Source of the DNA: an uncultured Eubacteriales bacterium
Lineage (GTDB): Bacteria > Bacillota > Clostridia > Christensenellales > UBA1242
Direction of reading: 5' to 3'
NCBI GenBank assembly: GCA_949841245.1
Contig: CATKYT010000005.1
Coordinates: 1-46,962 of the forward strand
Length of the DNA: 46,962 nucleotides
Shown here piece by piece: positions 5,767 to 40,555 of the stretch. The notes under the pieces are model-generated. The model had not been told where the DNA came from, made no database searches, and worked only from the letters and a program-made list of their open reading frames with translations. A program made the translations under genes and the position numbers. How positions within the stretch are numbered: the stretch's first letter is position 1; every line of letters starts with the position of its first letter.

Positions 5767-5795
5767 TTGACACTTGTTTTGATTTATGCTATTAT
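5767..5795 (+). promoter_or_regulatory. Promoter of the 199-aa ORF
   Basis: TTGACA-17 nt-TATTAT. Confidence 0.8.
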
Positions 5796-5807: not shown

Positions 5808-5816
5808 GGGGGGGGG
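5808..5816 (+). repeat. G9 homopolymer at the RBS position
   Basis: GTAAGC-GGGGGGGGG-AAAAAA-ATG. Confidence 0.95.
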
Positions 5817-5822
5817 AAAAAA

Positions 5823-6422
5823 ATGAATTTTAAAGAATTAAGACAAACTGCTGAATATTATGAATATCTTAAAATGCAGAAAAATGCCGACTTAAAAACT
5901 AAAAAACAATTAGTTTATCTTAAAAATGAGTTAAACAAATATATACATCTTTTTTATATTTCTCCAAAAGAATATAAAAATGCTTTAACAGAATATTTTA
6001 AATCTTTGGGAAAAACAGTGAAGTTTATAACCGAGGAAAAAACTAGTAAATATACTGTTACTGAACTTTACATAATTTCTATATTTGCAGAAAAATTTAG
6101 TCCAAATCCAGAAAAAAGATATACATGGAAAACACAGGAATTTGCAAAAAATGAAGAAAGAAGACCTTCAAAAGTTAATCTTGCGTTTGAATTATTTTAT
6201 TGCCAAGGTAAAACTTCTCTTTTTATTGAAAATAAAGGTTTAAAAGAAGTTTATTGGAATTTGGTAAAAGAAAATTGCAAACAAAAATTTAGGTTACAAG
6301 GATTAACACATATAAATTCAAAAACTGGTAAACGCGAATATGATAAATTTAATCCTAGTAAAACAGATTTAAGTAATTTACAAAAACCAGATACATCAAA
6401 CATAAACATTAAAATTTCATAA
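5823..6422 (+). CDS. Hypothetical protein (orphan)
   Basis: 199 aa, own promoter and terminator. Confidence 0.75.
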   Translation: MNFKELRQTAEYYEYLKMQKNADLKTKKQLVYLKNELNKYIHLFYISPKEYKNALTEYFKSLGKTVKFITEEKTSKYTVTELYIISIFAEKFSPNPEKRYTWKTQEFAKNEERRPSKVNLAFELFYCQGKTSLFIENKGLKEVYWNLVKENCKQKFRLQGLTHINSKTGKREYDKFNPSKTDLSNLQKPDTSNINIKIS

Positions 6423-39415: not shown

Positions 39416-39451
39416 AAACAAATTTTAACAAAAAAAAGACTTTAAAGTCAA
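39413..39451 (-). promoter_or_regulatory. Putative leaderless promoter of the tatD-family gene
   Basis: Minus strand TTGACT-18 nt-TAAAAT-TTGTTT-ATG. Confidence 0.6.
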
Positions 39452-39469
39452 GCCTTTCTTTTTATCTGA

Positions 39470-40506
39470 TTATTTATTTAAAATTGGCTCTTGTGGTTTA
39501 CTTAATCTAACATTAAGTTCGTCATATCTGACAACTTCATCAGTGCATAAATACTTATAGTCTAAAGGTAATTTATGTTTTTGTGAGTATTTTACCATTT
39601 TTCTCAACTCTTTAGTTGTGGTGTTCAACTGATGAGAAATTTTATAACATGTGTCATAATACTGTTTAATACTTCTCTTACAAATTTTAACTCTCTTATC
39701 GTTTTTTAACATTTTAAACATTTCATAGAAACTTTTTTCACTTAAATTTCCATGATTATGTAAGTCATTGTATTCATAAGTTTTGTTGCTGTCAACAATA
39801 TTTCCATTATATGAAATGCTGACAACTGGACCAATTGCAACAGTAGGAACTTTGTCACCTTTTAACCTGTAACAACTTGAGGCATAATCTAAGACAGGCG
39901 TTTTACATTTATAACAATTTTCTAAATTTTTGGCTCTTCCTTCATCAAAAATGGTAAAATTACACATTTTATCAATTTCAACTGTGAAATTTTTCACCAA
40001 TTTATCTATGTTTTGTTTAACTTTTTCTCTGTCAAAATGGTTGTCAATAGATTCAAGATGATATTTATCTAAACTAACAACGACTTGCAAAGCAAATTTT
40101 TTCTCGTTTCCGCTTGTAAGACCTGTTTTTTATAATCAATTTCAACATTTATTTTAGACTTTCTCTCATTTGTTTCTTTAACCACTTTCTTCAATTTATT
40201 TAACGCTTCAATATATTCATCTGAAACATTTGTGGCATTAGTAAAAACCAAACAACTAAAAACATCTGTCCCATTTTTTGTTAAAATTTCTGCAAGTTTG
40301 TTTATTCTGTCAACCACAAGAGAACTTTCTCCGCCAATAAACTGCAAACAATCCACAGTTGTAATTTCATCAAAAAGCTTTTCCATTATTTCATCTGACA
40401 TTACATGATTTTCTGCTTCACCACGACTACAATGTCCGCAATTAAGGTTACACTGTCTTGTAAGTTCCAATGCCAAATTTTGAATATGTATATTTTTATC
40501 TTTCAT
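39470..40506 (-). pseudogene. Radical SAM protein interrupted by a one-base shift at an A6 run (pseudogene or recoded/phase-variable gene)
   Basis: ORF 40069..40506 carries CNLNCGHC; ORF 39470..40090 continues in another frame. Adding one A gives ETRKKFALQVVVSLDKYHLES, joining both halves. Confidence 0.8.
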
Positions 40507-40525
40507 CTATCCCCCATTTACTCGC

Positions 40526-40555
40526 ATTTTAACACGGGGGGGGGGATTTTGTCAA
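40526..40555 (-). promoter_or_regulatory. Promoter with homopolymeric C10 spacer (candidate phase-variable promoter)
   Basis: Minus strand TTGACA-AAAT-C10-GTGT-TAAAAT; 18-nt spacer. Confidence 0.7.

Follow-up and report, generated by a model that had tools for sequence, protein, structure and literature searches.

Poly-C and poly-G promoter spacers as a candidate multi-locus switching system in uncultured, genome-reduced Clostridia

In the window (the whole stretch of 46,962 nt analysed here, from an uncultured member of the Clostridia), a homopolymer of ten C lies between the -35 and -10 boxes of the promoter of a radical SAM gene, the placement expected of a phase-variable promoter. This run is most likely a contingency tract, that is, a site of slipped-strand phase variation of promoter strength resembling that of porA and opc, and one that is used at many loci; the recurrent, slippage-prone promoter design very probably serves as an inbuilt switch, of the Neisseria type, for random expression. 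On a larger scale, and with less assurance, we favour the view that more than one hundred uncultured, genome-reduced species of Clostridia carry a multi-locus promoter phasome with C/G-tract spacers, in which many surface genes are expressed at random and near-identical promoter segments have been copied in places, and that a similar promoter class has arisen independently in Mucispirillum. The radical SAM gene is one among many controlled genes and not the point of the system.

In the proposed mechanism, the C10 tract would gain or lose single bases during replication through slipped-strand mispairing, and each change in length would alter the distance between the -35 and -10 boxes, raising or lowering the strength of a sigma70-type promoter. 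Loss of one C would shorten the spacer from 18 to 17 nt, as found in the related genome G001, and a stronger promoter would be expected; gain of one C would lengthen it from 18 to 19 nt, and a weaker promoter would be expected. Promoters of this design, with C or G tracts, stand before about a dozen genes in the organism's own genome and before many genes genus-wide, so that the combination expressed would be random from cell to cell. Many of the putatively switched genes encode lipoproteins, secreted proteins or envelope-modifying enzymes. Slippage is the mutational process that we infer, transcription is expected to change with tract length, and the benefit would presumably be a population of cells with diverse surfaces.

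The elements of the focal promoter are collected in Table 1. A GTGT precedes TAAAAT, and the TGT that abuts the box is similar to an extended -10 element; after TAAAAT comes GCGAGTAAATGGGGGATAG and then the ATG of the radical SAM gene at 40506 (minus strand). The C10 tract is the longest C/G run in the window, which has a GC content of 32.4% and only one other C/G run of at least 7 nt, a G9 at 5808. The tract is longer than composition predicts, as Markov models give about 0.02 or fewer runs of at least 10 nt per genome. An earlier note on this DNA had placed TTGACA and TAAAAT on the minus strand with the 18-nt AAAT-C10-GTGT between them, and had found a run of ten C striking for an AT-rich genome; the sequence bears out the former and the Markov expectation the latter. 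As for the G9 tract, the reading frame that it precedes (5823-6422) has a promoter of its own (TTGACA at 5767, TATTAT at 5790, spacer of 17 nt), and no Pfam match was obtained for the 199-aa product. Slippage of this G9 would alter the distance from the Shine-Dalgarno (SD) sequence to the ATG, a translational variant of the same idea.

Table 1. Sequence features of the focal locus and of the second long C/G run in the window
Feature	Position	Strand	Basis
-35 box TTGACA	40550..40555	-	sequence; conserved in G051 and G001 orthologues
C10 homopolymer in the -35/-10 spacer	40536..40545	-	sequence; orthologues C9 and CCCTCCCC
Spacer AAAT-C10-GTGT, 18 nt	40532-40549	-	sequence
-10 box TAAAAT	40526..40531	-	sequence; orthologues TAAAAT/TAGAAT
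SD-like GGGGG ahead of the radical SAM ATG	40511..40515	-	sequence
Radical SAM N-terminal part, 145 aa, CxxxCxxC motif, early end by frameshift	40069..40506	-	Pfam PF04055, E=6.3e-8
A6 run where the frame shifts, by comparison with intact orthologues	40126..40131	-	translations of both frames against G051/G001
Radical SAM C-terminal remainder, other frame, otherwise open	39470..40090	-	sequence
G9 in 5' leader, at the SD position of the reading frame 5823-6422	5808..5816	+	sequence

The earlier note took the radical SAM gene as the target of the promoter, and the gene is indeed directly downstream; what escaped that note is that its frame is broken and that the promoter design recurs across the genome and the genus. 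In this assembly the break lies about 380 nt downstream. Close orthologues in G051 (79%) and G001 (72%) have an unbroken frame of 346 aa. Neither an NCBIfam family above its curated cut-off nor a solved relative was found for the protein, and its name is therefore limited to "radical SAM protein". Since the C-terminal remainder is open and closely similar to G051, the break would be recent, a population variant (OFF) or an assembly error; with the gene frameshifted, the switch may have no product here. It is possible, if rather unlikely, that the focal tract is real while the locus is decaying in this species, leaving the switch a relic. The interruption at the A6 run of a frame that is intact in the orthologues would fit such decay, which the still open, G051-like rest of the frame and the fully conserved promoter speak against, and decay at this one locus would be compatible with promoter switching as the explanation for the genus. 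Between the radical SAM gene and tatD (39422-39475, minus strand) there are also a TTGACT and a TAAAAT, separated by an 18-nt spacer with a T8 run and overlapping a short palindrome; perhaps these form a promoter of tatD's own that contains an A/T tract.

Across the organism's own genome, pattern searches and inspection of sequence stretches identified 28 C/G runs of at least 8 nt in 1.0 Mb, against an expectation of 0.1-0.8 per 1.0-Mb genome under first- and second-order Markov models of the window; higher-order models predict more runs, though they absorb the runs themselves and so provide no fair null. Twelve of the 28 have a TTGAC within about 8 nt, where chance would give about 3% for each tract and about one in all (P ~5e-11). 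Most of these 12 also have, within about 30-70 nt, a -10 box, an SD sequence and a start codon. Which hexamer is the -10 box is ambiguous in some cases (L046, L052), and the best-matching one was taken for the orthologue counts. With 28 tracts, 12 of them of promoter type, the genome exceeds the figure of at least 10 candidate loci that marks a multi-locus phasome.

Most of the tracts outside promoters lie inside reading frames, where it is mainly the coding strand that has the G, and share the length range of 8-10. Two of them, L045:2019 (contig C6) and L058:7052 (contig C18), have an identical 40-nt context in large paralogous proteins. In L058 the G9 is in frame and 1859 codons are open behind a hydrophobic N-terminus, with another G9 some 40 codons into the gene; in L045 the G8 is out of frame, a stop follows five codons past the tract and the remaining sequence is open in a different frame. 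Judged from the sequence, this one clear on/off pair of paralogues shows, in the organism's own genome, the pattern that translational phase variation usually leaves. L055 holds a further out-of-frame coding tract.

Absence of mismatch repair, which is seen in some phasomes and is not required, was not found here: a MutS domain is present in the organism's genome and in the 18 other genus members tested. There is thus no sign of a general mismatch-repair defect, and loss of mismatch repair was rejected as the cause of the tracts. It is very improbable that the tracts arose as by-products of mutation in spacers under weak constraint and have no selected switching role. Within a promoter, constraint is lowest on the spacer sequence, and mutation rates are often raised in small genomes, both of which would suit such an origin; however, C/G runs of this length are expected less than once per genome, and by-product runs in an AT-rich genome should consist of A or T. 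Association with a TTGAC box and with secreted proteins, restriction to one genus within the order and the presence of MutS likewise misfit drift.

All tract-length comparisons made here are between species or between paralogues. The focal promoter carries C10 in the organism itself, C9 in G001 and CCCTCCCC in G051, giving spacers of 18, 17 and 16 nt, while GTATTGACAAAAT, a C tract and GTGTTARAAT are common to all three. Gene order around the radical SAM gene is kept in G051; in G001 the neighbouring genes and upstream sequence differ, yet the focal promoter is kept. Tract length thus differs between related genomes, at the level of species rather than strains, while the boxes are conserved. 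For the earlier note, a single invariant tract length would have counted against phase variation, and between species the three lengths (C10, C9 and CCCTCCCC) are not invariant; its underlying logic, that a change in homopolymer length alters the -35/-10 spacing, is supported by the comparative tests available.

Tract promoters have also lost the usual constraint on spacing. Among tract-free TTGACA/TATAAT pairs of the organism's own genome, 35 of 53 are spaced at exactly 17 nt, whereas the 107 tract promoters found across the genus whose -10 box is clear have, in all but one case, spacers of 13-20 nt with a mode of 16. In the sister genome G051, spacer length had changed in six of nine aligned tract promoters (L039, L042, L050, L238, L280 and the focal promoter); at L046 the tract had changed and the total spacer had not, and at L048 and L060 neither had. 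Conversely, none of 13 aligned ordinary promoters had changed, all being at 17 nt despite 48 substitutions (Fisher P=0.0011); the list of ordinary promoters allowed spacers of 15-19 nt, so that changes of up to 2 nt were detectable, and those with a lost perfect box would escape it.

Length differences are also found where the flanks are almost the same. One pair from the comparison with the sister genome, L238 and L269, is almost identical over more than 150 nt except for a difference of 1 nt at the end of the tract, and the promoter of a 244-aa lipoprotein (93-96% identical) has tracts of C9, C10, C8T and an interrupted CCAC7 in four species. Similarly, promoter copies within one genome whose flanks are nearly identical over about 100 nt have G8 and G9 in G044, where one copy is upstream of a leucine-rich-repeat-like gene, and G9 and G10 in G041; shorter copies with a shared core have G8-G10 in G111 and G9/G11 in G058. 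These multi-copy poly-G spacer promoters (L350-L356 in G111, L357-L361 in G058, L362-L367 in G041 and G044) share the same core within each genome, and some lie near contig ends, which suggests repeated promoter-gene cassettes. Sequencing or assembly artefacts, for example poly-G from two-colour Illumina chemistry, are an extremely unlikely source of the tracts. Poly-G is a known read artefact and homopolymer lengths can be miscalled, but independently assembled genomes of different species have the tract at the same promoter, flanked on either side by unique sequence, lengths cluster at 8-10 and do not run on, and the other families of the order are without the tract.

Genes downstream of the tracts are enriched for surface or secreted products, as is expected of a multi-locus phasome. 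A lipobox is present in 11 of 79 distinct downstream genes of the genus and in 6 of 273 background ORFs (P=1.5e-4), and a hydrophobic N-terminus in 31/79 and 44/273, respectively (P=3e-5); both figures rest on simple sequence rules rather than a trained signal-peptide predictor, on naive gene calls and on target loci that were partly selected through the motif. Targets with a family match include a lipoteichoic-acid-synthase-like protein with a sulfatase domain, a glycolipid glycosyltransferase, an acyltransferase and proteins that carry an Ig-like domain, choline-binding repeats or collagen-flanked surface repeats. A surface role is not obvious for other targets with a match, such as a NUDIX protein, a short-chain dehydrogenase and the radical SAM protein.

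Within the genus, the spacer-C pattern was found in 61 of 101 genomes and the spacer-G pattern in 50 of 101, with reversed-pattern controls near 0. In a 297-genome sample of the order, a stricter pattern was found in 5 of 13 members of the genus, in 0 of 9 genomes of the family's other genera and in 3 of 275 from other families (3/284 for the latter two combined). A design restricted to poly-C was rejected, poly-G spacers being common in the genus as well. An origin from phages or mobile elements was also considered; the strict motif occurs in only 5 stretches among 2.9 million viral contigs and is thus not a phage feature. Among the matches listed in the scan of genome contigs there are also single poly-C spacer promoters in unrelated genera (L114 in Histophilus somni, L128, L204, L219 and others), and the genes below them are predicted to encode secreted proteins or lipoproteins.

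Several Mucispirillum records were among the matches listed in that scan. Three Mucispirillum genomes (L281-L299) have about 9, 3 and 5 such promoters, mostly TTGACA-TT-C9-RTGA followed by a -10 box, with a 15-nt spacer. Lipoproteins are encoded by 13 of 19 genes downstream, compared with 10 of 65 background ORFs under the same simple rule. The tract is nearly constant at C9, with one C8/C9 orthologous pair. As in the genus described here, TTGACA-N2-C9-N4 and then a -10 box stand upstream of lipoproteins; unlike in that genus, the spacer is nearly always 15 nt and the tract nearly always C9, and the phylum is a distant one. Either this class has converged on the same switch, with a suboptimal spacing as its resting state, or it is a fixed promoter element.

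Near-constant length in Mucispirillum is the main reason that a second explanation stays alive for the tracts as a whole, in which the C/G tract is a fixed promoter element whose sequence, DNA shape or tract-binding regulator sets expression, with length held near 9, so that the genes would form a regulon and not a set of random switches. Tracts of the genus are 7-10 nt with a mode of 9, and C9, found in 70 of the 107 promoters, is a counterpoint to switching in that the commonest length fits a favoured length as well as it fits a slippage equilibrium. Flanks such as GTGT, GAG and ATGA recur within genomes, which is also in keeping with a fixed element, as is the near-uniform form in the three Mucispirillum genomes. 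We nevertheless consider a fixed element improbable: tract length differs among orthologous and near-identical promoters, some orthologues have interrupted tracts (CCCTCCCC, CCAC7), C as well as G tracts are used, and tracts outside promoters have the same 8-10 range.

If promoter switching by tract length is the correct reading, simple-repeat phasomes with many loci would extend beyond pathogens, with transcription as a main switching point. The richer members of this genus of small-genome, uncultured Clostridia have about a dozen promoter tracts per genome. The mechanism itself, tract slippage that alters promoter spacing, is known from porA and opc. What appears to be new is its place and scale: a multi-locus set with prominent promoter tracts in genome-reduced, uncultured Clostridia, and its parallel in Mucispirillum. 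Our literature search found no description for these Clostridia or for Mucispirillum; it was incomplete, with most subscription journals and all preprints outside it. Mucispirillum includes a named species from laboratory mice, and its promoters would offer an experimental route.

Among known systems, the closest in kind is promoter phase variation of porA and opc in Neisseria meningitidis (van der Ende 1995; Sarkari 1994; both as cited in PMC5084427), where, for example, Opc is raised when C11 becomes C12 (PMC3447861). Shared features are a promoter homopolymer of C or G, which in porA and opc governs spacing and expression through its length, surface-protein targets and lengths near 10; the candidate system described here differs in its many promoters per genome, its canonical TTGACA boxes and its Clostridia host. 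In Helicobacter pylori, the length of a T tract in the promoter region tunes sabA transcription stepwise, as a rheostat (PMC4081817). That is a T tract at one adhesin promoter, unlike the C/G tracts in the spacers of many promoters here. The tracts of the Campylobacter phasome are mainly coding-frame switches. In contrast, 12 of the 28 tracts in the present genome are promoter-associated, although coding tracts also occur here (L045/L058). Common to both systems are contingency genes with G/C homopolymers at many loci of a small, AT-rich genome associated with the gut (PMC6321876). Stochastic promoter switching is likewise found with the invertible promoters of gut Clostridia, such as pdcB and pdcC of C. 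difficile (PMC9286219), which switch by site-specific inversion, whereas the switch proposed here would operate by tract slippage.
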